Source: a virus. From it: a stretch of 22,497 nucleotides of DNA. The notes under the pieces were generated by a model. The model saw only the letters and a list, made by a program, of their open reading frames with translations. It was not told where the DNA came from and did no database searches. The stretch spans positions 1-22,497 of IMG/VR virus record IMGVR_UViG_3300024324_000094. One strand, given 5' to 3'. Below are positions 1-15,072 of this stretch, in pieces. A program made the position numbers and the translations under genes. Positions within the stretch are counted from its first letter, which is position 1. The number at the start of each line of letters is the position of its first letter.

Positions 1-1
1 G

Positions 2-757
2 TCATACAGTCCCGAGAGAATGTTGCATCCCCTTAACCAACAAAAATCAATGTGGAAGGGTCAAATTGGAGTAGTTAAAAGTCCAGTACCATATGATTAC
101 GCTTTCACATTGTCAGTGTTTGTAAAAAATGCGGATGACGGAACACAAATAATTGAACAGATAGTACCGTTTTTTCAACCCGATTTTACAGTAACTATAA
201 ATGCACTTCCAACAATGGGAATCAAGTTAGATGTTCCTATTATTTTAAATGGTGTTAATATTGAAGATTCATATGAAGGTGATTATCAAACACGAAGAGC
301 AATAGTTTGGACATTAGATTTTACAGTTAAGGGTTTTCTTTATCCGAATATTAAAGGTAAAGGATTTGGTGACGGTAGTGATGATCAGGCAACAGCATTA
401 ATACGCACATCAATTATCAATTTTCATATAATGCCGTATAGAGATCCAGGCTCGGTAGACGCCGAAAGAATTTTATTAGAATCAGATACAGGGTTTGGAA
501 AAGGTAGGGATGAAATATTAAATGAAGATGATTCCAAAATGTTATTAGAAACAACTAGAACAGATATTAATGCAACATTAGTAAAATCAAGATTTACATC
601 TAAAGTACCTATAGATGTACCAGCTGGCGATGATTATTATGAACCAACAGAAACAAGAGATTTCTTTGCAGAAGGTCTTGAATGGGATCCAGCTACAGGT
701 ACTGATACAATGGGTGGTACATTAGATATAAACGCATTCGGTAATTCAAACAAATGA
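2..757 (+). CDS. 15: Tail sheath stabiliser / tail completion protein gp15 (5' partial)
   Basis: This protein caps the top of the contractile tail, stabilises the sheath and provides the surface to which the head joins. The frame is open from the first bases, so the N-terminus lies outside the window; 251 residues are visible, while T4 gp15 has 272 including an N-terminal part with no counterpart here. The Met at position 20 is therefore probably internal. From memory of T4 gp15, the segment IIEQIVPFFQPDFTVTI matches its VEQILPYFQPHF region, and the later YEGDYQTRRAIVWTLDFTVKG matches the DGDNLSRRRIEWSLTFEVNG region, in the same order and spacing. The next gene, the small terminase, starts in an ATGA overlap with this stop, as expected for the T4 order 15-16. 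Confidence in the identity is high. Confidence 0.88.
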   Translation, partial: SYSPERMLHPLNQQKSMWKGQIGVVKSPVPYDYAFTLSVFVKNADDGTQIIEQIVPFFQPDFTVTINALPTMGIKLDVPIILNGVNIEDSYEGDYQTRRAIVWTLDFTVKGFLYPNIKGKGFGDGSDDQATALIRTSIINFHIMPYRDPGSVDAERILLESDTGFGKGRDEILNEDDSKMLLETTRTDINATLVKSRFTSKVPIDVPAGDDYYEPTETRDFFAEGLEWDPATGTDTMGGTLDINAFGNSNK

Positions 758-1209
758 TTAAAGATAAAATGGAAACTATTGAAAATATTGATAAGCAGGT
801 TGACCCTAAAACGGTTGATACAAAATTAGATGAGGTATTTGAGATTACACCAACATCTAAAAATGAACCTGTTGTATATAAAAAACCAGAAGTGAATGAT
901 GATGGAATGGATACTGATTTTCAGTATGCACGAGAAAATATATATAATGTGATAGAGAGAGGGTCTGACGCCATGGAGGGCTTACTTGAAGTAGCTAGGG
1001 AAACAGAACACCCGAGAGCATACGAAGTAGTAGGTCAGTTAGTTGATAAGTTAACAAATGCAAATAAAGAGTTAATGGGATTACATAAAACAAAAAAAAG
1101 CATGTCAGATGAAGTCGTAAGGTCACCTCAAAATGTTACTAACGCACTATTTGTAGGGAGTACAGCTGATCTTCAGAAGATGCTGAAACAGAAATCTAAG
1201 GAGGCGTAA
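754..1209 (+). CDS. 16: Terminase small subunit gp16
   Basis: The small terminase subunit recognises concatemeric DNA and stimulates the ATPase and nuclease of the large subunit during packaging. The 151-residue length fits T4 gp16 (about 164). The central helical region, roughly residues 50-118, matches the T4 pattern: ARENIY, then a helix ending ARETEHPRAYEVV, then LVDKLTNANKELMGLHK, which parallels [27 protein letters not shown] in T4. Near the end, ALFVGSTADLQKML matches the T4 segment VFMGSPTELMD. The start overlaps the gp15 stop by four bases (ATGA), which suggests translational coupling; a second ATG at 769 is possible. Unlike T4, the large subunit does not follow directly but lies 5.6 kb downstream. 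Confidence 0.85.
   Translation: MIKDKMETIENIDKQVDPKTVDTKLDEVFEITPTSKNEPVVYKKPEVNDDGMDTDFQYARENIYNVIERGSDAMEGLLEVARETEHPRAYEVVGQLVDKLTNANKELMGLHKTKKSMSDEVVRSPQNVTNALFVGSTADLQKMLKQKSKEA
1198..1204 (+). promoter_or_regulatory. Strong Shine-Dalgarno supporting a GTG start
   Basis: AAGGAGG lies seven bases upstream of the GTG at 1212, inside the last codons of the small terminase gene. It fixes GTG as the start of the membrane protein that opens the accessory insert. Confidence 0.7.
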
Positions 1210-1211
1210 GC

Positions 1212-1562
1212 GTGGAATCGCTATTCAGTGCGGTAAATATAACAATGTTTGGGATTATATTATTTTCCTCATTGTTCATATTTCTATTCAACTACAGACA
1301 CGATAATAAAGACAAGTATCAGGGCAAGTATTCTCTAATTGTATTTGATCTTTTCATTAACATGGGTATGTCAATTACTGGTTATATTTTAGTATGGCTA
1401 GTATTTGAAAACGTTCCACAATTAGCTCCATTTAACACTTATAGATTTCCAGTAGGATATATGTTTGGTTTGACTTCTAATATAAGCATTCCAATTGTTT
1501 TGAAGTGGTTTACATCACAAATCACTAAAAAGTTAAATGAAGCAGTGAAGAAAGGAGTATAA
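1212..1562 (+). CDS. Small integral membrane protein, possibly holin-like, unknown function
   Basis: I do not recognise a family. The 116-residue protein starts with GTG behind a strong ribosome binding site. It has three hydrophobic stretches at about residues 8-27, 41-65 and 80-100, and a short basic C-terminal tail (KKLNEAVKKG). A small size, three helices and a charged tail are compatible with a holin, but also with a membrane partner for the next gene. Its stop overlaps the start of the cytochrome-domain gene (TAATG), so the two are probably translated together. That coupling is the main hint that it may work with the cytochrome and binding protein rather than in lysis. Confidence 0.7.
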   Translation: MESLFSAVNITMFGIILFSSLFIFLFNYRHDNKDKYQGKYSLIVFDLFINMGMSITGYILVWLVFENVPQLAPFNTYRFPVGYMFGLTSNISIPIVLKWFTSQITKKLNEAVKKGV

Positions 1563-2020
1563 TGGCGGTAAAACCTAAACAAACTACTGCTCCTGAAGAA
1601 GTTGCGGACGAACATGTCGAGGTAATGGAATTAGAACCAGTAAAAGCCATTGAAATAGAAACTAAAAATCTAGTAGCATCAAGTAGAATATTCATATACA
1701 CTATAATAGGATTACTGGCATATTTAATTTTCTTAGTAATACCAGATATTTCCGAGAAGGTTACATGGGTGGAAAAGGATCTTAATTCTGTATTAGTACA
1801 ATCAGAAAGATTCAAAAAATCCACCAGAGTATTTGCAAGAGATAATCAATGTGCATCTTGTCACTTAGAGCCTGATTATCTTCTTCATAATCTCTTAACG
1901 AAGTATCCTAGTTTTTCAGATATTAAATCATTTATGTCTGTAGGACATCAACGATATTATACAATGACTCAACCTATATCAGATGCTGAACTCTTAGCAA
2001 TTTATAGGACTTTACAATGA
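1562..2020 (+). CDS. Membrane-anchored monohaem c-type cytochrome-domain protein
   Basis: The protein has 152 residues. Residues 1-42 are acidic and probably cytoplasmic. One transmembrane helix spans about 43-60 (RIFIYTIIGLLAYLIFLVI). A linker follows, then a compact C-terminal domain with a haem-c attachment motif CASCH at residues 97-101. Met135 in YTMTQPISDAELLAIYRTL is a good candidate for the distal ligand, because Met followed by Pro and then a final helix ending in Tyr-x-x-Leu is typical of class I cytochromes c. The domain is short, about 60 residues. Haem attachment would need the host maturation system in the periplasm. The gene overlaps both neighbours (TAATG upstream, ATGA downstream). 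The role is inferred to be electron transfer or interference with a host respiratory complex; structure and haem binding are untested. CXXCH can occur by chance, but here it coincides with the right topology and C-terminal helix. Confidence 0.75.
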   Translation: MAVKPKQTTAPEEVADEHVEVMELEPVKAIEIETKNLVASSRIFIYTIIGLLAYLIFLVIPDISEKVTWVEKDLNSVLVQSERFKKSTRVFARDNQCASCHLEPDYLLHNLLTKYPSFSDIKSFMSVGHQRYYTMTQPISDAELLAIYRTLQ

Positions 2021-3138
2021 TCATGGTTGGCAAACTTCTTGCATTTTTAATATTTTTAGTTATATCAGCATATCCCGGTAAAGCCAAAGATTCTCCTCAT
2101 GATCGTACTGGCGCAGTAGTTAGCAAAATAAAACAAATAGAATACATTCCAACATATGGATCAACGTTTAAAAGAGTAAAAGAACGTGGTCATATAATAT
2201 GTGGTGCCAAAGATTCTATGCCAGGTTTTGGAGAAGAGCTTTGGGATGCAGAAACAGGCGTATTAAAATTTCAGGGCTTTGATATAGATATTTGTAGGGC
2301 AATTGCTACTGCAGTATTCGGAGATAAGGAAAAGGTTGAATATGAAATAATAGATGGTAAAACAAGATTTAGTTATTTAATAGATGGAACGGTTGATGTG
2401 GTATCGGCTACTGTTACATACACATATACTAGAAATGTTCTTAAAAAATTAGAGTTCATGCCCACTACATATTATGATGGACAAGGATTTATTGTTCGAA
2501 AGACTCTTGGTGTATCATCTGCAAAGCAAATGGATGGTGCAAGAATATGTTATAGTTCAACCGGAACTGCCGCAAAAAATACTAAGGATTTTTTTACAAA
2601 ACATTTTCTTAATTATGTTCCAGTTGTGGTGCCAGTTGGAGAAAAATCTAAAGATTATTACTTAGATCGTAAATGTGATATGTATGGCACAGATCGCTCC
2701 GGTTTAGCATCTAATAGAATTGGTTTTAAAAATCCGGAACAACATGTGATCCTTCCAGAAATTATTTCAAAAGAACCTCTTGGTCCAGTAGTAAAATATG
2801 GAGATCAACAATGGTCTGATATTGTAAGGTGGACAATATATGTTCTGTTCATTGCAGAAGAAATGGGATTAAATTCAAATAATATATCTAAATTTAAAAA
2901 TAATATAGATCCAAGTATACAACGATTTATGGGCGAATTAAATGGTAATGATCATCCTCATCTAGGGGCTAAATTAGGATTAGATGCTACATGGGCATAT
3001 GAAGTTATTAAACAAGTTGGAAATTATAAAGAAATATATGAAAGAAATCTTGGTGAAAATACACCTCTAGCTCTTAAACGTGGGCTAAATAAATTGTACA
3101 CTGAAGGTGGTTTATTATATGCACCTCCATTAAAATAG
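2017..3138 (+). CDS. aapJ: Periplasmic general L-amino-acid-binding protein, AapJ-like (SBP family 3)
   Basis: Substrate-binding proteins of this type capture amino acids in the periplasm and hand them to the AapQMP ABC permease. Residues 1-23 look like a signal peptide: a hydrophobic core LLAFLIFLVISAYP and a GKA site before KDSP. The mature part follows bacterial AapJ closely in my recall: ICGAKDSMPGFG, FQGFDIDICRAIATAVFGD, TYYDGQGFIVRK, CDMYGTDRSGL, ILPEIISKEPLGPVV, VGNYKEIYERNLG and a C-terminal GGLLYAPPLK. Candidate ligand contacts are kept: Thr138/Arg139, the STGT turn at 181-184 and Asp226. AapJ's SRNTTWT segment reads SATVTYT here. At 373 residues it is slightly longer than typical AapJ (about 340). 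No permease or ATPase gene is present, so it would work with host components. The start overlaps the cytochrome gene stop (ATGA). Confidence 0.9.
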   Translation: MIMVGKLLAFLIFLVISAYPGKAKDSPHDRTGAVVSKIKQIEYIPTYGSTFKRVKERGHIICGAKDSMPGFGEELWDAETGVLKFQGFDIDICRAIATAVFGDKEKVEYEIIDGKTRFSYLIDGTVDVVSATVTYTYTRNVLKKLEFMPTTYYDGQGFIVRKTLGVSSAKQMDGARICYSSTGTAAKNTKDFFTKHFLNYVPVVVPVGEKSKDYYLDRKCDMYGTDRSGLASNRIGFKNPEQHVILPEIISKEPLGPVVKYGDQQWSDIVRWTIYVLFIAEEMGLNSNNISKFKNNIDPSIQRFMGELNGNDHPHLGAKLGLDATWAYEVIKQVGNYKEIYERNLGENTPLALKRGLNKLYTEGGLLYAPPLK

Positions 3139-3145
3139 GGAAAAA

Positions 3146-3463
3146 ATGCCAGATGAATTAGTCGATAAAATGTCAAATGAAATAGCCGCAGCAGAAGATA
3201 ACTTACGAATATGGACAGAAAAATATGAAATGGAAGTTAGGCGTGAAGCAGTGACTGCACAAGCGGATGCAAAGATGGCACTTGACGCGGCAAAAATAAG
3301 ATTAGAGAAGTTGACAGCACAATATAAACCAGAATATTTAACTAGGTTTGAAGCACTTCCAGTTCCACCAAAGTTTAAGCCACCATTGCCTGTAATACCA
3401 GAAGAAATTAAAAAAGAAATTCTACCAAAGGTAACCAGAAGTAAGAAGAAAAAGAAAAAGTGA
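3146..3463 (+). CDS. Coiled-coil protein with proline-rich linker and polylysine tail, unknown function
   Basis: No family is recognised. The 105-residue product has a long charged alpha-helical or coiled-coil segment (about residues 5-60, rich in Ala, Glu and Lys). A proline-rich stretch follows (PVPPKFKPPLPVIPEE, about 72-87), and the protein ends in RSKKKKKK. It starts eight bases after the AapJ-like gene, with GGGAAAAA before the ATG. No signal peptide or membrane helix is seen, so it is probably cytoplasmic. The basic tail could bind nucleic acid or anionic membrane surfaces. It reads as a real gene because it is tightly packed in the operon and has coherent low-complexity domains. Confidence 0.6.
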   Translation: MPDELVDKMSNEIAAAEDNLRIWTEKYEMEVRREAVTAQADAKMALDAAKIRLEKLTAQYKPEYLTRFEALPVPPKFKPPLPVIPEEIKKEILPKVTRSKKKKKK

Positions 3464-3502
3464 GTTAATAAAATATAAACATTATAATTAAAAAAGGATG
3501 AT

Positions 3503-3727
3503 ATGTCTTGGATTGGGAATATAATTAAAAAAGTTTTTAAAAATGAAGGTTTAAAACAACCAGAACCTGAACCTAAAAAAGCTGAGAAAAAAGTAAAAAA
3601 GAAAAATTTGAAAAGTATGACAAAAAAACAATTAGAGTCATACGGTAGAGAATTAGGTGTCGAATTGGATAGACGACATAATAAAGCTAAATTAATTGCA
3701 CGACTGGAAGAGGCGGTTGCAAATTAA
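3503..3727 (+). CDS. Small SAP/HeH-like domain protein
   Basis: This 74-residue protein has an N-terminal amphipathic stretch (MSWIGNIIKKVFKN), a Lys/Glu/Pro-rich linker, and a C-terminal helix-extended-helix motif at about residues 36-73. That motif contains the pattern SMTKKQLESYGRELG, a basic turn, then KAKLIARLEEA. The pattern fits SAP or HeH/LEM-like domains, which often bind DNA and occur in many phage proteins. AAGGATGAT precedes the ATG. The end of the gene overlaps the likely start of the holin gene. Its role is unknown; DNA binding is inferred from the domain type only. Confidence 0.6.
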   Translation: MSWIGNIIKKVFKNEGLKQPEPEPKKAEKKVKKKNLKSMTKKQLESYGRELGVELDRRHNKAKLIARLEEAVAN

Positions 3728-4001
3728 TAATACAATAAAAGAGTATTGGCGCGATTGGGCTGCACTCGTTTATTTGTTTATCTGCTTAGTAGATTTTTTT
3801 GTAGCGCCTTTGATATGGAACTTAATGATGGCGGAATATTGTGACACACATGATTGTATAAAAGAAGGTGTAACACGATGGATTCCTTTGACACTTGAAA
3901 GTGGCGCCATGTTTCATCTTTCATTCGGAGCAATCCTTGGTGCAACGTCATTTAATAAACATAAAGAGATTCACGCTAGCACTAAGTCTACTGATACTTA
4001 G
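3717..4001 (+). CDS. Putative holin of the 3TM type
   Basis: Holins form holes in the inner membrane and time lysis. The product resembles the 3TM holins of gene transfer agents and many tailed phages. It has an N-terminal RDWAALVYLFICLVDFFVAPLIW helix (about residues 12-36), a short soluble loop with two Cys, then WIPLTLESGAMFHLSFGAILGATSF (about 55-79) and a polar tail. The signature is the order LxLCLxDFxxAP, then LTLxxGxxFHLxxGAILG. There is no ATG. TTG at 3717 behind GGAAGAGG gives 94 residues and a short overlap with the preceding gene; TTG at 3696 would give 101. The last 60 or so bases also encode the start of the lipase lipoprotein in another frame. Confidence 0.72.
   Translation: MQINNTIKEYWRDWAALVYLFICLVDFFVAPLIWNLMMAEYCDTHDCIKEGVTRWIPLTLESGAMFHLSFGAILGATSFNKHKEIHASTKSTDT
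3927..3930 (+). promoter_or_regulatory. Internal ribosome binding site for the lipase lipoprotein
   Basis: GGAG lies within the holin gene, six bases before TTG 3937 and nine before GTG 3940. It supports initiation of the lipase gene inside the holin frame, and so a start much later than the first possible one at 3895. Confidence 0.5.
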
Positions 4002-4683
4002 TGGATGTGCTGAAAATAAAACTGATTCAAATAATGATCTTGATAGTGGAGATAAATCAAATCTACCAGTCACAATATCATCTCTGATTGAACACGCAGA
4101 GTATTGTAAAGTAATTTACGATAGTGGTGGTAATCAAAAAGATGAAGTTGCATTTGATGTAAAACAAGATAGTGGAATAACAATAATTATTATTAGGGGC
4201 ACTGCCAATGCAGAAAATGTCCAATCTGATATTGATGTAAGATTAGTAGATGATGCAGTCACAGGAATCAAACTTCATAAAGGATTCAGAGATGCGTCTT
4301 TAGGTGTTATGGAGATTATTGATAGAGATCATACAGTTGAACATACTGTACATATTACAGGTCACAGTTTAGGTGGAGCTATTTCACAAATAATAGGAAT
4401 GTGGCTTCATAAAAGAGGTCACAATGTTCAAATCTATTCTTACGGATCACCAAAAGTTACTTATCAAATTATGTCTGGAGGACAGCCCACTCATTGGCGT
4501 GTGGTTCGTCTTAGCGATCCTATCCCTTTTACTCCTCCCTGGCCTTATGCTCATACCGGTCTTTTTATAGATAGTCAGACTTTAGATTGGGGTCCAGATA
4601 ATGATAATGGATTAATTTCTCAAACAGATGGCTTGACTCACGCCATAGCAAAATATGTGGAAACATTGAAAGCCGCTCAATGA
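3940..4683 (+). CDS. Class 3 lipase lipoprotein
   Basis: Class 3 lipases hydrolyse acylglycerols or phospholipids with a Ser-Asp-His triad. Starting at GTG 3940 (or TTG 3937), the 247-residue product begins with a clean lipoprotein signal: QRHLINIKR, hydrophobic FTLALSLLIL, and lipobox LSGC with Cys23 as the lipidation site. A polar linker leads to the lipase fold: IIIIRGTAN for the oxyanion region, LHKGFRDA, then GHSLGG with nucleophile Ser143. It continues with YSYGSPKV, Asp193 in RLSDPIPFTPP and His205 in YAHTG. All three catalytic positions are present. Residue after Cys is Ala, so outer-membrane sorting is plausible. The start is nested in the holin gene in another frame, and the stop overlaps the PycTM-like gene. 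An attack on envelope lipids during lysis, in place of spanins, is inference. Confidence 0.85.
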   Translation: MQRHLINIKRFTLALSLLILSGCAENKTDSNNDLDSGDKSNLPVTISSLIEHAEYCKVIYDSGGNQKDEVAFDVKQDSGITIIIIRGTANAENVQSDIDVRLVDDAVTGIKLHKGFRDASLGVMEIIDRDHTVEHTVHITGHSLGGAISQIIGMWLHKRGHNVQIYSYGSPKVTYQIMSGGQPTHWRVVRLSDPIPFTPPWPYAHTGLFIDSQTLDWGPDNDNGLISQTDGLTHAIAKYVETLKAAQ

Positions 4684-5402
4684 AGGGTGAAGAAAGACCT
4701 TACTTAAAAAAATATGGAATAGAAGAAAAGGTTAACCCATTTGAAAACATTCCAGAAGATAGAACAGCCGTAGATAACATTTTAAGAGTGAATCACGGTA
4801 ATCAAATGAGATTAAACTTGATGGCTGATGCTAAAGCTAATATTATGATTACTGTTTCTTCTATTGTTTTTTCAGTCACTATAGCTAATTTAGATAATGA
4901 AATAATGAAATGGCCTTTAATAACATTTGCAGTTGGAAACTTTTTTACATTATTATTTGCCATATTTGCAATTATTCCAAAAACAGCTTATCCTAAGCTA
5001 CCACATTCCAATGAAATTGATAGAAAATCGCCTTGGTTTAATCCTTTATTTTTCGGACATTTTGCACATATTGATATTGATGAATATAAAAAAGATTACG
5101 CAGAAAAATTGTTGACTGATGATAAAATATATGATACTATGGTAGGAGATATATATGGCCAAGGAAAAGTACTTGCACTTAGTAAATATAAGTATCTCAA
5201 ATGGTCATATAATTGTTTTCTTGGAGGGATGGCATCAGCAATGGCAGTTTTTGCATTACAAGGGGCTGCAGCAGATTTTATATTAGAGTATGGATTATGG
5301 TTAAAAGATATTATATTTGAGGAAATATCATTTACTTTTGATGGACTGAGAGAAGTAGCCTGTCAAATAAGTACTCCATGTCGACAGAAATATAACTTAT
5401 AA
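4680..5402 (+). CDS. PycTM/DUF5706-like membrane protein (Pycsar effector-like)
   Basis: Pycsar effectors of the PycTM type are membrane proteins that disrupt the inner membrane when cUMP or cCMP is made during infection. This 240-residue phage product shares the family pattern as I recall it. NQMRLNLMADAKANIMITVS (residues 41-60) parallels the NHxRLSxIADxKANIxISxN signature at the start of the first helix. Two helices lie at about 54-70 and 79-100, the second ending AIFAIIPKT. A soluble region follows with NPLFFGHFA (121-129), DIYGQG (147-152) and KYKYLKWSY, then a third helix at about 176-200. A short C-terminal extension ends the protein. The start overlaps the lipase stop (ATGA). No cyclase gene is visible. 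It may act as a decoy, a lysis factor or an exclusion protein; the family call is by eye. Confidence 0.75.
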   Translation: MKGEERPYLKKYGIEEKVNPFENIPEDRTAVDNILRVNHGNQMRLNLMADAKANIMITVSSIVFSVTIANLDNEIMKWPLITFAVGNFFTLLFAIFAIIPKTAYPKLPHSNEIDRKSPWFNPLFFGHFAHIDIDEYKKDYAEKLLTDDKIYDTMVGDIYGQGKVLALSKYKYLKWSYNCFLGGMASAMAVFALQGAAADFILEYGLWLKDIIFEEISFTFDGLREVACQISTPCRQKYNL

Positions 5403-5405
5403 ATA
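5398..5405 (+). promoter_or_regulatory. Late promoter TATAAATA
   Basis: This is an exact match to the T4 late promoter -10 element recognised by gp55. It overlaps the stop codon of the PycTM-like gene and lies 31 bases before the next ATG. It would give separate late expression of the downstream membrane protein genes and the terminase. Confidence 0.6.
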
Positions 5406-5436
5406 TGATATACAGATAACTTTATGGAACGTATAA

Positions 5437-5817
5437 ATGAGTATATTGAATAGAAGTAAACGTCAAGGTGACGATAAAATAAATACTGTTAAGGAATTGA
5501 TTATTACATCAGAAGATAAATTATGGGAAAGTGATCCAATGAAAGCATTGACATTTGAAGGTACGGAACGTCGCAAAAAATTGAACTGGTGGACAAGAAC
5601 ATTTTTATCCATTGTTATAGTTCTTACTTTTTTATTCTTAGTGTGGTTACTCTTTATGGAGGACCTGCCTGATGCATCTCGCGATTTAATAAATATAATG
5701 ACCGGGGCGTATGTGGCGGTACTCGCCAAAGCAACGGACTACTGGTTCAAAGATAAAGATGATCCAGAACACAAAGAAACAGAACGAGAATTAGCAAAAG
5801 ATGCTAGCGTAAGCTAA
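5437..5817 (+). CDS. Two-helix membrane protein, holin-like
   Basis: The 126-residue product has a polar, charged N-terminal region of about 50 residues. Two transmembrane helices lie at about 53-74 (TFLSIVIVLTFLFLVWLLFM) and 82-104 (INIMTGAYVAVLAKATDYWF), joined by a short loop, and the C-terminal tail is strongly charged. The helical hairpin and charged tail resemble class II holins or other small phage membrane proteins, but I see no diagnostic motif. A late promoter lies just upstream. Because a better holin candidate lies at 3717, this could be a second holin, an antiholin or an unrelated envelope protein. Confidence 0.65.
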   Translation: MSILNRSKRQGDDKINTVKELIITSEDKLWESDPMKALTFEGTERRKKLNWWTRTFLSIVIVLTFLFLVWLLFMEDLPDASRDLINIMTGAYVAVLAKATDYWFKDKDDPEHKETERELAKDASVS

Positions 5818-5845
5818 TAAATTAAAATCTAAAAAAAGTAAAGCT

Positions 5846-6121
5846 ATGTCTTTAGAAAAAGAAAATTTAGAGGCCCATGTTGACTTATGTGCGGAGAGGT
5901 ACCAGCGCTTGGAAGAAAAGTATCAACTGCTGAAAGATACTATTGATAAAAGTAATACGGTTATTCACGAAAGAATTTCCAAAATGAAAGATAGTATGGA
6001 CGAAATGAAAGCATTATCAATAGAACAACATTTTAAACTAAATAGAATAATAATAACTACTGCTGTTGCTGTTATAGGTACTATTGTTGCCGCAGTTATT
6101 CAACAGTTGATCCATAATTAG
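5846..6121 (+). CDS. Tail-anchored coiled-coil membrane protein (XhlA-like architecture)
   Basis: This 91-residue protein has a long charged coiled coil (about residues 1-65, beginning MSLEKENLEAHVDLCAERY) and a single C-terminal transmembrane helix (about 66-88, IIITTAVAVIGTIVAAVIQQLI). Only three residues follow the helix. Proteins starting with a similar EAHVDLCAERY segment are common hypothetical proteins in marine T4-like phages. The layout resembles haemolysin XhlA-type lysis accessory proteins. It lies among holin-like genes, so a role in lysis or membrane scaffolding is possible but not shown. Confidence 0.65.
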   Translation: MSLEKENLEAHVDLCAERYQRLEEKYQLLKDTIDKSNTVIHERISKMKDSMDEMKALSIEQHFKLNRIIITTAVAVIGTIVAAVIQQLIHN

Positions 6122-6127
6122 GTTAAT

Positions 6128-6595
6128 ATGTTAACATTGATTGATATAATAGAAGAAGAACTAGATGAATTATTAGAGCTTGAAGAAGATCTTGCTGAAG
6201 ATGGTTTAACTTTAGAAGATTTCTATGAGTGGACTGATCAATTAGATGAAAAAGAATCCCAAGCAAATTATATTAATAGAATGAAAAAATTGGGTAGAAA
6301 AGCCAGACGTATAAACAAGTTATCTTCAACGAAAAGAAAAAAGAAAAGATCTCAATTAAGACGAAAGACTGCTGCTAAGATTCAAAAATCAGCCCTACGT
6401 AAGGCCCAAGGTGATGTAATACCAAAAGCAGTAATGAAGGCTACAGGTACTGGTGGAATGATTAAAAGAAAAAGATGGAAAGAAATGAAAAAGAAAATGG
6501 TTGATAGAAAGAAAGTAGTAAAAGCCCGTGAAGTTAAAAGAGGCGAACCCGCAAGGATGAAAGCAGCCCGTAGATCAATGGCCAAACGAGGATAA
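6128..6595 (+). CDS. Bipolar acidic/basic protein, unknown function
   Basis: I do not recognise a characterised family. The 155 residues split sharply. Residues 1-45 are very acidic (repeated Glu/Asp/Leu, such as IIEEELDELLELEEDLAED). Residues 50-155 are very basic, with runs such as KRKKKRSQLRRKTAAK and KRKRWKEMKKKMVDRKK. No membrane segment is present. The basic part could bind DNA or RNA, with the acidic part shielding it or holding a partner. The position shortly before the large terminase is compatible with a packaging or core protein, but this is conjecture. The stop is followed by a near-match to the late promoter (GATAAATA, 6591-6598). Confidence 0.6.
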   Translation: MLTLIDIIEEELDELLELEEDLAEDGLTLEDFYEWTDQLDEKESQANYINRMKKLGRKARRINKLSSTKRKKKRSQLRRKTAAKIQKSALRKAQGDVIPKAVMKATGTGGMIKRKRWKEMKKKMVDRKKVVKAREVKRGEPARMKAARRSMAKRG

Positions 6596-6597
6596 AT

Positions 6598-6801
6598 ATG
6601 CATCATATTTCAGTAAAAGAAAAAATTGAACATACAAAGTCATACAGTTCTGATGGTGGAAGAAATGTTCGTAAAGTTATAAAAAAAAGAATTGTTTCCC
6701 GAAGAAGGACCGCAGTCACAGAATCAGGTGCTGAATTATTGAAAACCGCTCCAAAAGATGAAAACGGTCAAACCAATTGGAAAAAAATAATGAATAGCTA
6801 A
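6598..6801 (+). CDS. Small basic protein, unknown function
   Basis: The 67-residue product is basic in its middle (GRNVRKVIKKRIVSRRRTA) and polar throughout, with no membrane segment or recognisable domain. It begins two bases after the previous stop, and the large terminase ATG follows its own stop immediately. This tight packing and a complete frame support a real gene. The arginine/lysine-rich core suggests nucleic-acid contact, but nothing more can be said. Confidence 0.55.
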   Translation: MHHISVKEKIEHTKSYSSDGGRNVRKVIKKRIVSRRRTAVTESGAELLKTAPKDENGQTNWKKIMNS

Positions 6802-8454
6802 ATGCCAAGTACACATTATCTCGGAAATCCAAAATTAAAATCTGCTAATGTTCCAGTAGAATTTGCTGAAGAAGAATTAGCTGAGTATATAAAATGTCAA
6901 AGTGATCCTGTATATTTTATTAAAAAATATGTAAAGATTATTCATGTTGATAAAGGCTTAGTGCCTTTTGATCTATATTCTTTTCAAGAGAATATGGTAG
7001 AGACATTTCACGACAATAGATTCGTGATTTGTAAGATGCCACGACAGTCTGGTAAGTCAACCACTATTATTGCATTCTTTTTACATTACATACTTTTTAA
7101 TGAAAATGTACAAGTAGGTATTCTTGCTAATAAAGGTTCACTCGCTAGAGAATTATTAGATAGATTAAAACTATCTTATGAAAATTTACCCATGTGGTTA
7201 CAGCAGGGTATTTTAGCATGGAATAAAGGTAATATAGAATTAGAGAATGGTTCAAAAGTATTAGCGGCTGCTACATCATCATCCGCGGTACGGGGATCAT
7301 CATTTAATATAATCTTCCTAGACGAGTTCGCCCACGTTCCAAAAGAATTAGCAGAAGAATTTTTTACTTCAGTATATCCAACTATTTCTTCTGGGCAAAC
7401 TACCAAAGTCTTTATTGTATCTACACCTTTAGGGTTAAATCAATTCTATAAGATGTGGGTTGATGCAGAAGAAAAAAGAAGTAATTATATACCTATAGAT
7501 GTTCATTGGTCTGAAATTCCAGGTAGAGATTCAAAATGGAAAGAAGAGACCATTCGAAATACCAGTGAAAGACAATTTTCACAAGAATTCGAAACTGAAT
7601 TTGTTGGTAGTACACAGACACTTATAGCAGGTTCTAAATTAAGACAATTGCCGTTTAAGACACCAATACATTCGCAAGAAAATATTGATATATTTGAAAA
7701 TCCAATAGAAAAACATTCGTATACTATATGTGTTGATACGGCAAGAGGACAGGGATTAGATTATTCCGCACTTACAGTTATAGATTCAACTGAAGTCCCT
7801 TATAAACTTGTAGCGAAATATAGATGTGATACTATATCACCTTTACTATATCCTAACATAATTTATAAAATAGCTAAACATTATAATGAGGCATATGTAT
7901 TAGTTGAAGTAAATGATATAGGCGAACAGGTAGCAGTTACCTTACACCAAGATTTAGAATATGAAAATATGATGATGATGACTTGGAAAGGCAGAGGCGG
8001 ACAACAGCTGGGCGGTGGGTTTGGTAAAAATGCTCAGTGGGGTGTAAGAACTACTAAACAAGTTAAACGTTTAGGATGTGCTACATTAAAGAGTTTAATC
8101 GAAGAAGATAAGTTAGTTATTACAGATTATGATGTAATATATGAACTTACTTCATTTTCAGCAAGAAAAGATTCATACGAAGCTGAAGAAGGTCATCATG
8201 ATGACTTAGTAATCACGTTAGTCATCTTTGCGTGGTTAACTAATCAAGAATATTATAAAGAATTAACAGATGTAGATTTACGTGAAAAGATGTACTCAGA
8301 AAAAATGAAAGAAATTGAAGAAAGCTATTTACCGTTTGGAATTATAGATGATGGATTGGAAGAAGAAGAAATCGTCGATAATGAAGGAAATAGGTGGCAA
8401 GTTGACCGAACCAATAGAGTTTTAGAAGATACAGGTCATCATACTTTTTTCTGA
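6802..8454 (+). CDS. 17: Terminase large subunit gp17
   Basis: This is the packaging motor ATPase and headful nuclease. The 550 residues are slightly shorter than T4 gp17 (610). The N-terminal ATPase has Walker A RQSGKST (81-87), Walker B IIFLDEFAHV with Asp174/Glu175, and a coupling motif IVSTP (about 205-209). The C-terminal RNase H-like nuclease begins with CVDTARGQGLDYSA (Asp322). It continues with VEVNDIG, which holds a candidate second acidic residue, and GHHDDLVITLV, which holds the third. The start directly abuts the preceding stop, and the sheath gene follows behind a late promoter. The separation from the small subunit gene by 5.6 kb is unusual compared with T4. Confidence 0.95.
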   Translation: MPSTHYLGNPKLKSANVPVEFAEEELAEYIKCQSDPVYFIKKYVKIIHVDKGLVPFDLYSFQENMVETFHDNRFVICKMPRQSGKSTTIIAFFLHYILFNENVQVGILANKGSLARELLDRLKLSYENLPMWLQQGILAWNKGNIELENGSKVLAAATSSSAVRGSSFNIIFLDEFAHVPKELAEEFFTSVYPTISSGQTTKVFIVSTPLGLNQFYKMWVDAEEKRSNYIPIDVHWSEIPGRDSKWKEETIRNTSERQFSQEFETEFVGSTQTLIAGSKLRQLPFKTPIHSQENIDIFENPIEKHSYTICVDTARGQGLDYSALTVIDSTEVPYKLVAKYRCDTISPLLYPNIIYKIAKHYNEAYVLVEVNDIGEQVAVTLHQDLEYENMMMMTWKGRGGQQLGGGFGKNAQWGVRTTKQVKRLGCATLKSLIEEDKLVITDYDVIYELTSFSARKDSYEAEEGHHDDLVITLVIFAWLTNQEYYKELTDVDLREKMYSEKMKEIEESYLPFGIIDDGLEEEEIVDNEGNRWQVDRTNRVLEDTGHHTFF

Positions 8455-8466
8455 AACCGGTTTGTT

Positions 8467-8474
8467 TATAAATA
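8467..8474 (+). promoter_or_regulatory. Late promoter TATAAATA
   Basis: An exact late -10 octamer lies in the short gap between terminase and sheath genes, 49 bases before the sheath ATG. The sheath gene also has a good ribosome binding site (ATAGGAGAAGAAG). Confidence 0.65.
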
Positions 8475-8523
8475 ATCTTAGTAACTAATAATACATGAAC
8501 TTAATGAATCATAGGAGAAGAAG

Positions 8524-10719
8524 ATGGCATTTACAGTAAGTCCAGGAGTAGTTACTCGTGAGATTGATTTAACTACAATTGTGCCTGAGACTGGAACAAC
8601 TGCAGGTGCTTTTGCTGGGGCTTTTCGCTGGGGACCCTTAGAAGAGGTTGTCAATGTTAGCAGTGAAGATCTACTCGTAGAAAATTTCCAGAAGCCTGAC
8701 TCTTCAACATATCTATCTTTTTTCACAGCGGCGAACTTCTTAGCCTACGGTCAAAATTTAAATGTTGTTCGAGTAGCAAATTCACAAGCATATAACGCAA
8801 CGACAGATGCGGCAAATACTGTCTTAATTAAAAGTGACACAGCCTATTACAATACATATTACACCGAATTTGGAGGCTCAGGAGCTTCTGATAATTACGG
8901 TGAATTTGCAGCGAAATATGCAGGGGAACTAGGTAACTCACTTAAAGTCGGATTATGTGGTGCTGACATACCAGAGCTAATTTTGACAGGAGCTGTAGCT
9001 ATTGCCTTTTCAGGAAATGAAGGTACTGTTACAGGAACGTCAACTCTTTTTACAATGGAATTACAAGTCAATGACGTTATTAAAAATAACGATGCTAGCA
9101 CATATTTCATAGTAACAGCAATAGCGTCCGATACATCAGCAACAGTTCAGTCTTCAAGTAATACTGCTGTGACTGGTTCAAATTTATTTACTAGAATGAA
9201 ATCATCACATTACGAATCACCATCAACAAGTGTAATGGGAACAGTTCAAGTTTCCGATACCGCACGAAAAGTAATGACTGGAACAGGAACATATTTTGAT
9301 ATCAACTTGATAGCCGGTGACAAAGTAACACTTAATGGTGAAACACATTCAGTAGCTTCTATTACAAGTAATACAAGCGCAACCTTAGAAACAGCAATTT
9401 CACCAAGTTCGACAGCAATTTCAGGTTCAATTGCATGGTCCAGAGAATGGGAGTTCGCAGGTAATTTTGATTATGCGCCTACCACTTCAGACTTTGGAAC
9501 ACGAAGAGGTGTAACACGAGATGAAGTTCATGTAGTTGTAGTAGATGAGGACGGAGAATGGACAGGTGTTAAGGGAACAGTATTAGAAACTTTTCCAGCA
9601 CTGTCCGTTGCCTCAGATGCTAAATCAGAAGATGGTCAAGCACTTTATTATAAAGAAGCTATTAATAGACGGTCTAAATACATTTGGTGGATGAAACACC
9701 CTTCAGGAACGGCTGCGAGTACAGCACCTAATACTGCACTATGGGGAACTTCCGCTAATTCAGCTTCCAAGCCTGCATTTACACAGAATAGAATAACTGT
9801 TAATGCAAGCATGACAGGTGGAGCAGATGGTCAAACGTTAACTGATGCTATTACAATTACAGGATTCGATAAATTTAAGTCTTCAGAAGACATAGACATT
9901 TCATTAATGATTGCTGGATCTTGTTCTTCAACAGTTGCCAGTTATTTAATTAGTAATATTGCTGAAGTTCGAAAAGATTGTATGGTATTCATCAGTCCAG
10001 AACAAAGCGATGTTGTTAATAATGACGGCGGAGAAGTTACAGCAATTAATGATTTTAGAAATAATTTACCTAGCACATCATATGCGGTTATTGATTCTGG
10101 ATGGAAATATCAGTATGATAAATACAATGATACGTTCAGATATGTTCCGTTAAATCCAGATGTCGCCGGACTCGTTGTACGAACAACATTGGAAAGAGAT
10201 TTTTTCTTCTCACCAGCAGGCTTTAATAGAGGCCAGGTTAAAAATGTTGCTCGCCTCGCATGGAATCCTAATAAAACGGAAAGAGACAATCTTTATAAAA
10301 ATGGTGTAAACCCAGTTGTTTCGTTTTCAGGTCAAGGTACATTATTATTCGGTGACAAAACATTGTTGGCTAAGCCTTCGGCATTTGACCGTATTAATGT
10401 ACGTAGATTGTTTATTACTTTAGAAAAATCAATTGCTATCTTCGCACAATTTTCAATGTTTGAATTTAACGATGATTTTACGCGTTCATCATTTGTTTCG
10501 GCAGTAGAACCTTTCCTTAGAGATATTCAAGGAAGAGGTGGAATTACAGATTTTGCTGTAATTTGTGACGAATCAAATAATACACAGGAAGTTATAGATA
10601 GAAATGAGTTCATCGGAAGTATATTCGTGAAACCAACCAAATCTATTAACTTCATCTTACTCAACTTTGTTGCTGTTAGAAGCGGTGTAGAGTTTGAAGA
10701 AGTTGTGAATGCTGTATAA
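8524..10719 (+). CDS. 18: Contractile tail sheath protein gp18
   Basis: The sheath surrounds the tail tube and contracts to drive it through the envelope. The N-terminus (FTVSPGVVTREIDLTTIVP, then GAFAGAFRWGP) and the C-terminal domain (a VRRLFITLEKSI helix, FVSAVEPFLRDIQGRGGI, and a final strand pair around INFILLNFVAVRSG) are characteristic of T4-like sheaths. At 731 residues it is longer than T4 gp18 (659). The extra length is at least partly an insert of two similar beta-rich repeats at about residues 157-224 and 239-307. A late promoter and a strong ribosome binding site precede it. The stop codon lies inside the next late promoter. Confidence 0.95.
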   Translation: MAFTVSPGVVTREIDLTTIVPETGTTAGAFAGAFRWGPLEEVVNVSSEDLLVENFQKPDSSTYLSFFTAANFLAYGQNLNVVRVANSQAYNATTDAANTVLIKSDTAYYNTYYTEFGGSGASDNYGEFAAKYAGELGNSLKVGLCGADIPELILTGAVAIAFSGNEGTVTGTSTLFTMELQVNDVIKNNDASTYFIVTAIASDTSATVQSSSNTAVTGSNLFTRMKSSHYESPSTSVMGTVQVSDTARKVMTGTGTYFDINLIAGDKVTLNGETHSVASITSNTSATLETAISPSSTAISGSIAWSREWEFAGNFDYAPTTSDFGTRRGVTRDEVHVVVVDEDGEWTGVKGTVLETFPALSVASDAKSEDGQALYYKEAINRRSKYIWWMKHPSGTAASTAPNTALWGTSANSASKPAFTQNRITVNASMTGGADGQTLTDAITITGFDKFKSSEDIDISLMIAGSCSSTVASYLISNIAEVRKDCMVFISPEQSDVVNNDGGEVTAINDFRNNLPSTSYAVIDSGWKYQYDKYNDTFRYVPLNPDVAGLVVRTTLERDFFFSPAGFNRGQVKNVARLAWNPNKTERDNLYKNGVNPVVSFSGQGTLLFGDKTLLAKPSAFDRINVRRLFITLEKSIAIFAQFSMFEFNDDFTRSSFVSAVEPFLRDIQGRGGITDFAVICDESNNTQEVIDRNEFIGSIFVKPTKSINFILLNFVAVRSGVEFEEVVNAV
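8992..9444 (+). repeat. Two diverged protein repeats inserted in the sheath
   Basis: Residues about 157-224 and 239-307 of the sheath share the order GTV, then TGTGT or TGTSTLF, then a hydrophobic GD/ND-V step, then a V-x-SI or V-x-AI strand, then SNTSATLE or SDTSATVQ, and a final SG. Such G-T-V ... S-x-T-S-A-T repeats are known from surface modules of phage tail proteins. The similarity is at protein level; the DNA is diverged. Confidence 0.65.
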
Positions 10720-10722
10720 ATA
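10715..10722 (+). promoter_or_regulatory. Late promoter TATAAATA overlapping the sheath stop codon
   Basis: An exact late octamer contains the TAA stop of the sheath gene (10717-10719). It lies 34 bases before the first tail tube ATG, which has a ribosome binding site TAGGGGA. Confidence 0.65.
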
Positions 10723-10756
10723 AAGATAATTATACAACAATATTAGGGGAATTTAA

Positions 10757-11323
10757 ATGAGTTTTCAAGTTGATGGACAGAATAGTTTCATTTCGAAACT
10801 AGCTAAAGGAGGCGCGAGAGCTTCCCTTTTTGATGTAAATATTTCACTCAAAGGGGATGCGTCAACTACTGGTACCAATCCAAACTTCAAATTTATGTGT
10901 AAAGGTGTGCAAATCCCTGCTAACGCATTAGGTATAACTACTGTTAATTATTTTGGTCGTGCGGTTAAGATTCCAGGCAATAGAACGTTTGAGGATTTAA
11001 CAACAACTGTTATAAATGATGAGGGATATTTCATCAGAAACCAATTGGAAAGTTGGATGCATAAATTGAATTCGCACCAAGGTAATGTACGTGATGCAAC
11101 CATGGTAAAAAAGTTAGATGGTTACACTGCGGATATGACAGTATGGACCTATGCGAAAACAGGGGATTTTGATCAAGGATATAAATTTGAAAATTGTTTT
11201 CCAACTGCACTAGATCAAATTGATGTAAATTGGGATCCAAATGATGCAGTAATGGAATATACAGTTACCTGGTCTTACGATTATTGGGAGCACATAGGTA
11301 TAACCGCTGATTTTGACGGATAA
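10757..11323 (+). CDS. 19: Tail tube protein gp19, first copy
   Basis: Tail tube protein forms stacked hexameric rings that carry DNA to the cell. The 188-residue product matches gp19 in length (163 in T4) and layout: an N-terminal SFISKLAKGGARASLFDVNI strand region, KFMCKGVQIPA, a NYFGRAVKIPGNRTFEDLTTTVINDEG segment, a helical ESWMHKLNSH, and a C-terminal VTWSYDYWEH strand. The neighbouring gene is a clear paralog, so two tube proteins are made. The position between sheath and portal fits the T4 order 18-19-20. Confidence 0.9.
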   Translation: MSFQVDGQNSFISKLAKGGARASLFDVNISLKGDASTTGTNPNFKFMCKGVQIPANALGITTVNYFGRAVKIPGNRTFEDLTTTVINDEGYFIRNQLESWMHKLNSHQGNVRDATMVKKLDGYTADMTVWTYAKTGDFDQGYKFENCFPTALDQIDVNWDPNDAVMEYTVTWSYDYWEHIGITADFDG

Positions 11324-11350
11324 ACGAGATAATTTTTAAGGATAGAAAAA

Positions 11351-11899
11351 ATGCCAGATTTTAGAATAAGCTCTTTTACGAGCAAGTTACAAGGTGGTGG
11401 AGCAAGATCCAATCTCATGGAAATGACATTGGGGACAGTCCCAGGAGGCGGCACTGCTACAGATTGGAAATATTTGTGTAAGGGTTCTCAAATACCACCA
11501 TCAAATATTACACCAATTGAGGTACCTTATTTTGGCCGCCAAGTGAAAGTTGCTGGGGAAAGTAGAGAATTTCCTGCCTTATCTACCATAGTCGTTAATG
11601 ATGAAATGCATACCCTGAAAAGCGCACTTGAGAAGTGGATGGCGATTCTTAACGGCCACAAATCAAATAAGGCCAAAGAAGGCATATTCGCGACCAGAAG
11701 TAGTTATACTACTCAAATGACATTAAAAATGTTTAAAAAAGATGGTGAAAAAGATCAAGAGTGGAAGTTTATCGGCGCTTGGCCATCAAATGTATCAGCT
11801 ATTGATTTAAGTTGGGATTCAGGGAACACAATTCAAGAATTCACCGTAGATTGGCAGTATGACTACTACACACATGAGCAAGCAAACGTTACGTCATAA
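11351..11899 (+). CDS. 19: Tail tube protein gp19, second copy (paralog)
   Basis: The 182-residue product repeats the pattern of the preceding gene: FTSKLQGGGARSNLMEM, KYLCKGSQIPPS, PYFGRQVKVAGESREFPALS, VVNDEM, EKWMAILNGHK and a final VDWQYDYYTHE. It is diverged over its whole length, so the duplication is old and both copies seem intact. AAGGATAGAAAAA precedes the ATG. Whether both build one mixed tube, or one forms a specialised ring at an end, cannot be told from sequence. Confidence 0.88.
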   Translation: MPDFRISSFTSKLQGGGARSNLMEMTLGTVPGGGTATDWKYLCKGSQIPPSNITPIEVPYFGRQVKVAGESREFPALSTIVVNDEMHTLKSALEKWMAILNGHKSNKAKEGIFATRSSYTTQMTLKMFKKDGEKDQEWKFIGAWPSNVSAIDLSWDSGNTIQEFTVDWQYDYYTHEQANVTS

Positions 11900-11938
11900 T
11901 AACCCGTTTGCTTTAATACTTATAGATAGAAATATATT

Positions 11939-13627
11939 ATGAAATTATTTGGATTTAATATTGAGAGAGATCGTAAACCCGACTTACCTGCACTAAGTTT
12001 CCCGGAAAATCAGGAAGGTGCTATCGAAGCCACTTCGGCTGGTGGTGCCTTTGCTTCTTATCTTGATTTAGAGGCATCTGCTAAAACTGACGCTGATTTA
12101 ATAATGAAATATAGGGAAATGGCAGAGCATCCCGAATGTGATATGGCAATTGAAAATATTATTCAGGAAGCCATTGTTACCAACCAAGCAAGAAATCCCG
12201 TTGATTTAGACTTAACTCATACAGATTTATCAAAAAATCTTCAAGATAGAATTTCGGATGAATTTGAAATTATCTTGAAATTACTTGATTTTAATAATCA
12301 AGCATATGATATTTTTAAGCGTTGGTATATTGAAGGTAGAATCTTTTATCATGCAATGATAGATCCAAAAGAAATTGAAAAAGGAATTCAAGAATTAAGA
12401 TTAATTGATTCTTTTAAAATTAAAAAAGTTAGACAAATAATCCCAGATCAAAAACAAGCACCTGGTGTTTTCAAATTACCTAAATTTGAAGAGTATTATT
12501 TGTTCAATGAAAAAGGATTATTAACACCAAGTCAAATGGGTGTTAAGGTAGCTCCAGATTCTATGATAATGGCACATTCAGGAATAATGACAAGAGATAA
12601 GAAATTCGTTGTTTCTCATTTACATAAAGCCATTAAAGGATTAAATCAATTAAGAATGTTGGAAGATGCTGTCGTAATTTATAGAATAGCAAGAGCACCA
12701 GAACGAAGAATATTCTATATTGATGTAGGCAACTTGCCCAAGCAAAAAGCTGAGCAGTATCTAAAAGATATTATGACAAGATATAAAAATAAGCTTGTAT
12801 ATGATGCAGCATCTGGGGAGATCAAAGACGATAGACGACATCAATCAATGTTAGAGGATTATTGGCTTCCACGAAGAGAAGGTGGAAGAGGAACGGAAAT
12901 TTCTACTTTACCTGGTGGACAAAATCTAGGTGAAATGGAAGATGTTGATTATTTCAGAAAGAAATTATATCAATCATTAAATGTTCCTTTATCCCGATTA
13001 GAAGCTGATACACCTTTTGTATTAGGTAGAGCATCTGAAATTAGTAGAGATGAATTAAAATTTTCAAGATTTATTGATAGAATTAGAATAAGATTTTCTC
13101 ATCTATTTTTTCAAATAATGGAAAAGCAATTGATTCTTAAAAACGTTATTCATACATCTGAATGGCCAAAATTAAGAGAAACTATCAGATTTAATTATGC
13201 AATGGATAATCACTTTGCTGAATTAAAAGAACAAGAATTAATGACTGATAGATTAAATATGATGAGGGACGTAGAAGAATTAGTTGGAAATTATTATTCT
13301 AAGCAGTTTGTTAAAGATAAGATTCTTAGACTTACACCAGAAGAACAAAAGAGAATCGAAAAAGAAATTAAAAAAGAAGAAAAAGAAGCTGAAGCAGATG
13401 GTGATCAATATCCGCCACAAGCAGGAATGCCACCGGTAGTTCCACCAGTTAATAAAATTAATGTACAGCCGGGAGCTGATCCAGGTGGTGGAACCTTTAC
13501 GCCGGCGGATCAGGGCCTGGCAACATCTCAAGGAATGCAACAAGCTCAAGATGAAGTACAACCAGAATTATTAGCAGGACAAAATTTATTAACGCTAAAT
13601 AAGAAAAGAATATATGGTGGAAAATAA
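11939..13627 (+). CDS. 20: Portal protein gp20
   Basis: The dodecameric portal sits at the unique head vertex, nucleates prohead assembly and is the channel for packaging. The 562 residues fit T4 gp20 (524). Recognisable portal segments are YREMAEHPECDMAIENII with EAIV, the wing region FNNQAYDIFKRWYIEGRIFYH, HLHKAIKGLNQLRMLEDAVVIYR followed by RAPERRIFYIDVGNLP, and SLNVPLSRLEADTPF. The C-terminus is charged then Pro/Gln/Gly-rich. It follows the tube genes as in T4. Its last bases overlap the start of a small core-like gene. Confidence 0.95.
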   Translation: MKLFGFNIERDRKPDLPALSFPENQEGAIEATSAGGAFASYLDLEASAKTDADLIMKYREMAEHPECDMAIENIIQEAIVTNQARNPVDLDLTHTDLSKNLQDRISDEFEIILKLLDFNNQAYDIFKRWYIEGRIFYHAMIDPKEIEKGIQELRLIDSFKIKKVRQIIPDQKQAPGVFKLPKFEEYYLFNEKGLLTPSQMGVKVAPDSMIMAHSGIMTRDKKFVVSHLHKAIKGLNQLRMLEDAVVIYRIARAPERRIFYIDVGNLPKQKAEQYLKDIMTRYKNKLVYDAASGEIKDDRRHQSMLEDYWLPRREGGRGTEISTLPGGQNLGEMEDVDYFRKKLYQSLNVPLSRLEADTPFVLGRASEISRDELKFSRFIDRIRIRFSHLFFQIMEKQLILKNVIHTSEWPKLRETIRFNYAMDNHFAELKEQELMTDRLNMMRDVEELVGNYYSKQFVKDKILRLTPEEQKRIEKEIKKEEKEAEADGDQYPPQAGMPPVVPPVNKINVQPGADPGGGTFTPADQGLATSQGMQQAQDEVQPELLAGQNLLTLNKKRIYGGK

Positions 13628-13793
13628 TGGTAGAGAAATTATAGCAACAATTATTGATGATATTGTTGCAGGCAGAGATTATAACGCACTGACTTCAGTC
13701 CAGAATGTATTACAAAAAAATACTGCTACAAGATTAACAGATTTTAAAAAAGACCAAGCTGAAACAATGTTTAAGGAAAAACAAGATGTTTAA
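13614..13793 (+). CDS. Small prohead core-like protein, possibly gp67-like
   Basis: ATG at 13614 opens a 59-residue frame that overlaps the portal end by 14 bases and the next gene by 8. The protein reads MVENNGREIIATIIDDIVAG, then RDYNALTSVQNVLQ, then a Lys/Asp-rich end with DQAETMFKEKQDV. In T4, gene 67 (prohead core, 80 residues) lies at exactly this place. Its layout is similar: a helix, a short turn before a second helix (NDLVAARKLFAEAM), then a basic segment and ARNF. T4's acidic tail is missing here. The location and layout are seen; the gp67 equivalence is inference. Confidence 0.6.
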   Translation: MVENNGREIIATIIDDIVAGRDYNALTSVQNVLQKNTATRLTDFKKDQAETMFKEKQDV

Positions 13794-14073
13794 ATACGAT
13801 AGAAAAACCTTTTTACCAACAGATCAACGTCAGGAATTGAATGAAATTAGTGACGATCAAAATCCTGAATTTATGTTTCAAACAATGCATATGAAGCTTG
13901 TGATTGCTATAGCGAATGGAAAAATTAACGCTAAAAAAGCGGCATTAGAAGAGTTGGCTAATCGTGGTTATGATAAAAACGGTAAATGGGTCGGATGGGA
14001 TGAGAATCCTGCAAAAACTGCTCGAGAAACAAAAAGACGCGCAAAATTAAAATGGCTGTACCCTTCCGGGTAG
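13786..14073 (+). CDS. Conserved hypothetical protein in the prohead gene cluster
   Basis: The 95-residue product has no function I can name. It contains a helix LVIAIANGKINAKKAALEEL followed by ANRGYDKNGKWVGWDE, a combination I associate with small hypothetical proteins of marine T4-like phages. A basic end follows (RETKRRAKLKWLYPSG). It takes the place of T4 gene 68 (prohead core) but shows no obvious similarity to it. It is soluble and overlaps the preceding small gene by eight bases, which suggests coupled translation. Confidence 0.65.
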   Translation: MFKYDRKTFLPTDQRQELNEISDDQNPEFMFQTMHMKLVIAIANGKINAKKAALEELANRGYDKNGKWVGWDENPAKTARETKRRAKLKWLYPSG

Positions 14074-14114
14074 GAACGACAGAGCCAGTAAACTACGACA
14101 TTAAATTAGTATAA
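14052..14114 (+). CDS. Possible 20-residue micro-ORF
   Basis: ATG at 14052 opens MAVPFRVGTTEPVNYDIKLV, ending at TAA inside the next late promoter. It overlaps the 3' end of the preceding gene by 22 bases in another frame and covers most of the 69-base gap. No ribosome binding site is clear (the upstream bases are AT-rich), so this is a weak candidate, kept only because it fills the gap and ends as two real genes here do, within TATAAATA. Confidence 0.25.
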   Translation: MAVPFRVGTTEPVNYDIKLV

Positions 14115-14117
14115 ATA
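14110..14117 (+). promoter_or_regulatory. Late promoter TATAAATA
   Basis: An exact late octamer lies 25 bases before the ATG of the small putative structural gene and would drive it together with protease gene 21. Confidence 0.6.
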
Positions 14118-14142
14118 AAACATACACTTTAGAAAGTAGACA

Positions 14143-14409: not shown

Positions 14410-14418
14410 GGAAAACAA

Positions 14419-15069: not shown

Positions 15070-15072
15070 TTT

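Follow-up and report, generated by a model that had tools for sequence, protein, structure and literature searches.

The window analysed here, i.e., the whole stretch of 22,497 nucleotides, covers part of the genome of a T4-like phage, and profile matches place the sheath, tube and portal genes after the large terminase, in T4 order. Its GC content is 34%, and bases 1-15,399 are 99.99% identical, over the stretch compared, to a 167,436-base IMG/VR contig. The phage group is apparently marine, judging from its kinship to marine phages and from sample numbers. Comparison of the large terminase identifies P-TIM68 and Melnitz (Kyanoviridae), at about 59%, as the closest phages in GenBank. Both share with the window a single order of tail sheath stabiliser, small terminase, large terminase, sheath and tube, but they differ from it between the two terminase genes, where Melnitz carries an F5/8-type C domain gene and P-TIM68 carries tail-fibre and hypothetical genes, in each case without the TM3-CYT-SBP-P genes described below. 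In the window, this region is organised as follows:

20-757, tail sheath stabiliser, at the start of the window
754-1209, + strand, small terminase, left border of the P interval
1212-1562, + strand, TM3, small membrane protein of 116 aa, a conserved neighbour of P
1562-2020, + strand, CYT, single-TM protein whose C-terminal domain has a c-type haem motif (CxxCH)
2017-3138, + strand, SBP, amino-acid-binding protein (SBP_bac_3) with an export signal
3146-3463, + strand, small lysine-rich ORF, lineage-specific
3503-3727, + strand, small ORF with a weak Rho_N-like match, lineage-specific
3696-4001, + strand, HOL, small membrane protein of 101 aa (start codon uncertain), holin-like only by size and hydrophobicity
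3895-4683, + strand, LIP, Lipase_3 protein with, by eye, a lipoprotein-like signal; its start is perhaps the GTG at 3940
4680-5402, + strand, P, PycTM-family membrane protein of 240 aa, from ORF and profile matches
5398-5405, + strand, TATAAATA, T4-type late promoter motif, at the end of P and before the next gene (5437)
6802-8454, + strand, large terminase, right border of the P interval

An earlier note on this DNA had assigned P to the PycTM/DUF5706 family, and profile searches bear this out. Indeed, the Pfam PycTM model PF18967 matches P with an E value of 7.7e-20 (71.7 bits, cut-off 27.2), the PADLOC PycTM models match it with E values as low as 8.4e-15, and all 18 aligned relatives of P (18/18) match PF18967, at E values of up to 0.001. 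The segments which that note quoted are present in the 240-aa ORF. PADLOC models of CBASS 2TM effectors also match P, but more weakly than the PycTM models (best 1.4e-8). PF18967 is the sole Pfam match, and P has no match among PHROG, NCBIfam or PDB sequences; neither an HD domain (Pfam) nor a holin family (Pfam, PHROGs) was found in it. Judged by its sequence, P is genuinely homologous to PycTM, the Pycsar effector, and belongs to the PF18967 domain family.

The protein is laid out as a long N-terminal helix running into TM1, followed by TM2, a two-helix linker, a third long helix and a C-terminal tail. The predicted model (pLDDT 71) shows a helix at 26-69, TM2 at 77-98, two short helices, a helix at 161-194 and a tail helix. 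Hydropathy of the window protein gives two clear membrane segments, the third helix being weaker and below the threshold used. Searches with this model returned no convincing PDB or viral fold match: the best Foldseek E values were 0.11 in PDB and 0.042 in BFVD, and VIA Z values reached 10, a range common for helical bundles. One BFVD entry, the 149-aa viral protein S5VYM5, was returned with a Foldseek probability of 1.00, an E value of 0.099 and a target TM-score of 0.51.

P resembles the PycTM of Pycsar not only by its domain but also by its segments, i.e., ADxKAN before TM1, FFGxF, D-x-Y-x-x-G and K-Y. In a comparison with 28 bacterial rows, from which ten long-branch bacterial rows were left out, the phage proteins are the same at 29 of 42 family-conserved positions and differ at 13. 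The 7 positions invariant in the 28 bacterial rows (D50, K52, A53, P100, F125, K169 and F180) are kept in 16/16 phage rows. On the other hand, the phage proteins differ from Pycsar PycTM by residue changes of their own, among them FFGHF in place of FFGNF and, where TM2 ends, IP in place of RP, and by a pair of cysteines in the tail, present in 60/61 P forms of at least 215 aa and in 5/22 shorter forms. Were the N-terminus cytoplasmic and the membrane crossed three times, the tail would come to lie outside the cytoplasm, and this pair could then, speculatively, be a redox contact. P does not resemble a gene in decay; its dN/dS is 0.14 in what is effectively one comparison (L006, L007 and L018 carry the same protein) and 0.86 in the other, with L019.

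To place P within its family, we built a tree of 54 rows that includes 16 phage representatives of 83 (L134 and the L090 duplicate were left out). Bacterial PF18967 domains came from the class of G009, a Saprospiraceae MAG (31/198 genomes with a match), and from the phylum of G008, a Chloroflexi MAG (5/201 genomes with a match, G008 included). The tree is unrooted, and nine of its bacterial rows sit on long branches; all 16 phage rows cluster together in it (97/91), amid bacterial domains of both the HD-fused and the stand-alone kind. Proteins of the G009 class with an HD domain and a C-terminal PycTM domain share a homologous membrane domain with P and are intermingled in the tree, but they differ by the HD domain and by a length of about 390-450 aa. 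Nineteen bacterial PycTM domains, in proteins of about 390-450 aa (L102-L116, L119, L121, L138 and L139), are labelled HD-fused; among these 19 rows, the HD domain in front of PycTM was confirmed by profile in 5/5 tested. Among the loci listed, an HD-fused PycTM gene has a PF00211 gene within about 2 kb only at L108 and L121.

P also differs from its Pycsar relatives in its setting: it is phage-borne, sits in an apparent late operon and in a clade of its own, and no cyclase was found with it. The earlier note had remarked on the missing cyclase, and we agree: PF00211 is absent from the window and from 7 larger related records (0/7, none of them known to be 90% complete). The search works where a cyclase exists, since it recovers one beside bacterial relatives such as L117. 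This near bacterial relative, 29% identical to P, directly follows a class III cyclase gene (G129:C63). As the adjacent cyclase is absent, the P locus is not Pycsar as a system.

We then asked how widespread P is; the counts given throughout are of related sequences rather than of independent events. In IMG/VR, a scan with six aligned relatives yielded 292 candidates, 115 stretches of which encode a P relative, and 80 of these 115 were kept. No P relative was found at E 0.01 in 50,697 GenBank phage records, and 72,556 plasmids gave one distant match. In the GTDB contig set, 3 of 107 candidates encode a P relative, all on MAG contigs. For two of these (L089 and L091), a bacterial origin was rejected, as they carry gene clusters common to phage contigs; they are probably phage sequence binned into MAGs. 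P is single-copy in each of the 7 larger related records.

The position of P is recurrent. In the clustered set of 85 sequences (84 loci and the window), P lies between the small and the large terminase in 14/14 loci that have both; the large terminase follows P in 37 loci and precedes it in none. The steadier neighbours of P, overlooked in the earlier note, are three envelope genes (1212-3138): within six genes upstream of P, SBP is found in 49/51, CYT in 47/51 and TM3 in 40/51 decidable loci, which had been chosen by P. The two loci without SBP near P are L081 and L090. Because these first loci had been selected for P, we also ran the search in reverse, from CYT and TM3. CYT is encoded by 221/276 and TM3 by 244/302 candidate stretches, and the best 80 of each were kept. 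The resulting 133 loci were reduced to 29 distinct ones, each with SBP and at least 2.5 kb after it, by dropping those with SBP absent on the strand, with less than 2.5 kb after SBP or with identical first 300 bases of SBP. P is present in 29/29 of these decidable loci, 12 of which have the same id as in the P scans, 10 more lie on contigs already retrieved by P and 7 are on new contigs. In 22/29, P starts 0 to 58 bases after SBP. A strictly obligate linkage is rejected: L081 and L090 have P elsewhere, and the MAG contig G009:C53 carries TM3-CYT-SBP followed by a fibre-like gene, with P absent from the 2.2 kb left. In L081 (record G006), P adjoins a lipase, and neither SBP nor CYT was found in the 99-kb record; in L090, P is a few genes away from another membrane gene.

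Of these neighbours, SBP matches SBP_bac_3 with 44.1 bits (cut-off 26.4), and TIGR01096 is found in 8/8 aligned members, the window member scoring 121 bits, under the cut-off of 256 of this model. The 12 matches listed, amino-acid-binding proteins encoded on alphaproteobacterial plasmids and probably of the AapJ kind, share 44-47% identity with it. Only 6 GenBank phage records have SBP relatives, all distant. CYT is probably a cytochrome, on the strength of its motif: CxxCH is kept in 62/62 relatives of at least 138 aa, preceded by one TM segment, its side of the membrane being presumed. No cytochrome profile scores above its cut-off for CYT. SoxA/TsdA matches were obtained for 5/9 members (best E 0.0039), with 15.5 bits for the window member, below the cut-off of 27, and the best single E value (0.0013, one member) is to an unrelated family, FAM209. 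The CYT model (pLDDT 54) is too poor for use, and no CYT match was found in GenBank phage records. TM3 has no convincing Pfam or PHROG match.

The earlier note had instead described a lysis-like cassette in which P is translationally coupled to a lipase and lies next to a holin. The coupling is real in the window, where the stop codon of the lipase overlaps the ATG of P as ATGA. The lipase itself is well supported (Lipase_3, E 3.6e-15; GHSLG in 26/26 LIP relatives of at least 230 aa), but this arrangement is lineage-specific, a lipase being found within three genes of P in 18/37 decidable loci. By comparison, SBP lies within five genes upstream of P in 33/37, and in two of the four misses (L016 and L076) the contig contains just three genes ahead of P. 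On these counts we rejected a lysis cassette as the defining context of P. Since P mostly follows SBP, the lipase coupling appears as a local arrangement and the link to TM3-CYT-SBP as the more general one. The holin finds no support: HOL has one clear hydrophobic segment, and neither it nor three of its relatives match a holin profile in Pfam or PHROGs. As for other lysis genes, a scan for Hydrolase_2 endolysins found one in 4/7 larger records, and in 1 of these 4 it is less than 5 kb away from P; with no holin profile either, the description as a lysis-like cassette holds only in part. The steadiest partners of P are TM3, CYT and SBP, rather than the lipase and the "holin". Two further observations concern this type of gene. 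At 5846-6121 of the window, a small protein with a C-terminal TM segment gives weak PHROG matches to holin and hemolysin (E 0.0047 and 0.015) and is possibly a lysis gene. At L041, a Hydrolase_2 endolysin (13241-13843) is located a few genes past P.

The time at which P is expressed was approached through the late promoter motif. We counted exact TATAAATA motifs from 100 bases before to 20 bases after each ORF start, taken as the first ATG, GTG or TTG. The motif accompanies the start of the sheath gene in 18/21 cases, that of the tube gene in 7/21 and, in the window lineage, that of the gene after P in 12/15, and it occurs in 35/3400 random stretches. Near the start of P it was found in 1/82 loci, and near those of TM3 (0/60), CYT (0/60), SBP (0/68), HOL (0/34) and LIP (0/28) never. 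Since P, TM3, CYT and SBP almost never have a motif of their own, unlike some of their neighbours, P probably belongs to a late operon. Most simply, this operon would start upstream of the tail sheath stabiliser and have P as its last gene or one of its last. The motif is equally missing from TerS (0/31), gp15 (0/23) and TerL (0/40); with TerL lacking it too, its absence is a trait of the whole packaging stretch and not of P alone. Across the whole window, neither TATAAATA (6 occurrences versus a mean of 3.77, with 17/100 shuffles reaching at least that number) nor CTAAATA (6 versus 7.48) is above chance: the signal resides in the placement of the motif across loci, rather than in its number in the window.

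Taken together, P is a PycTM-family member kept as a regular late gene by a group of T4-like phages. Among open-licence papers, as far as their accessible text extends, we found no report of PycTM in such a role. As to its function, we tentatively infer a membrane action of P at a late stage of infection, as a holin-like or lysis-timing protein. Two papers describe PycTM as impairing the membrane when Pycsar fires (PMC11224242, PMC12489823). This property, the apparent late co-transcription and the recurrent place of P make a late membrane use the best explanation. P would be made late, together with the packaging proteins, and would insert in the inner membrane so that the conserved segments ADxKAN and FFGxF face the cytoplasm. 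It might then assemble as PycTM pores are thought to and permeabilise or depolarise the membrane, either as a holin-like actor or as an exit timer, with a cyclic nucleotide, the redox state or its own dose as candidate triggers. TM3, CYT and SBP would monitor or maintain the condition of the envelope. Thus, of the functions proposed in the earlier note, a pore-former adopted for lysis comes closest, a late or lytic membrane role fitting best, and the lytic action itself stays conjectural. Several points count against a lysis role: P has no holin profile, an endolysin is near P in only 1/4 of the records with Hydrolase_2, and neither a solute-binding protein nor a cytochrome is, to our knowledge, a known lysis part. 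PycTM is a bacterial abortive-infection effector, and its occurrence as a regular phage late gene, with no cyclase but with a cytochrome-like and an amino-acid-binding partner, suggests that phages can domesticate the effectors of bacterial defence. Moreover, TM3, CYT, SBP and P constitute a concrete, testable four-gene set.

The main rival, plausible though doubtful in our view, dispenses with killing altogether. According to it, the four genes would support the envelope of the infected cell: SBP would feed amino acids to a host transporter, CYT would help electron flow, and P and TM3 would regulate or stabilise the membrane. The closeness of SBP to genuine amino-acid-binding proteins, the haem motif kept in 62/62 CYT relatives, the membrane or export segments found in all four proteins and the tight linkage of their genes all point this way. 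Cyanophages are also known to carry electron-transport and uptake genes. Tetrapyrrole-synthesis genes are present in pelagiphage-type contigs (PMC11480375). Against it, two papers describe PycTM as membrane-impairing (PMC11224242, PMC12489823), and CYT matches no profile above cut-off. In addition, 5-aminolevulinate synthase (TIGR01821) is found in 0/7 larger records, and support through haem synthesis was rejected on this count.

Two unlikely readings give P other tasks at the membrane. In the first, P would exclude superinfecting phages or protect the cell already infected: kept quiet, it would fire or block when a second phage injects its DNA. The predicted membrane location of P and its kinship to defence effectors suit this proposal, but P belongs to an apparent late operon beside packaging genes, and superinfection-exclusion genes are commonly made early. 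The second, which we regard as quite unlikely, elaborates on the lysis-timing role: SBP and CYT would report the nutrient and redox state to a captured Pycsar-type pore that times lysis, as an envelope sensor-effector. If this were true, a defence effector would have been turned into a lysis clock.

The earlier note had also proposed a decoy that binds cUMP/cCMP. P would then mop up these nucleotides or, as a dominant-negative partner, enter the PycTM assemblies of the host, thereby blunting the host Pycsar. It is true that P keeps the family-conserved residues and that the cyclase is absent from the window and the 7 larger records. However, since P is probably a late-operon gene, a counter-defence sponge is disfavoured, late expression being presumably a poor time for counter-defence. 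The recurrent place of P beside packaging genes, its company with SBP and CYT, and its identity of only 29% to the cyclase-linked bacterial relative L117 also argue against a decoy, and we consider it highly improbable, even with the conserved residues kept. Finally, P as a virion or assembly protein on a PycTM scaffold, which its location between the terminase subunits and its seeming co-transcription with tail and packaging genes might evoke, fits so badly with its three predicted membrane helices, two of them clear and one weaker, and with its membrane or exported neighbours that we give it hardly any credence.

Some P-bearing or related contigs show features of their own. The Saprospiraceae MAG G009 (UBA7328) has four PycTM domains, one of them on the phage-like contig L090, and its TM3-CYT-SBP genes are on another contig. 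In L090, positions 465-1091 encode a multi-TM protein of about 200 aa that belongs to cluster 19 (12 members) and for which no Pfam or PHROG match was found in the L090 member. Members of this cluster frequently occur close to P, including at loci that lack TM3-CYT-SBP. In L081, another P-bearing phage contig, positions 6489-7688 encode a trypsin-like protease with a PDZ domain.
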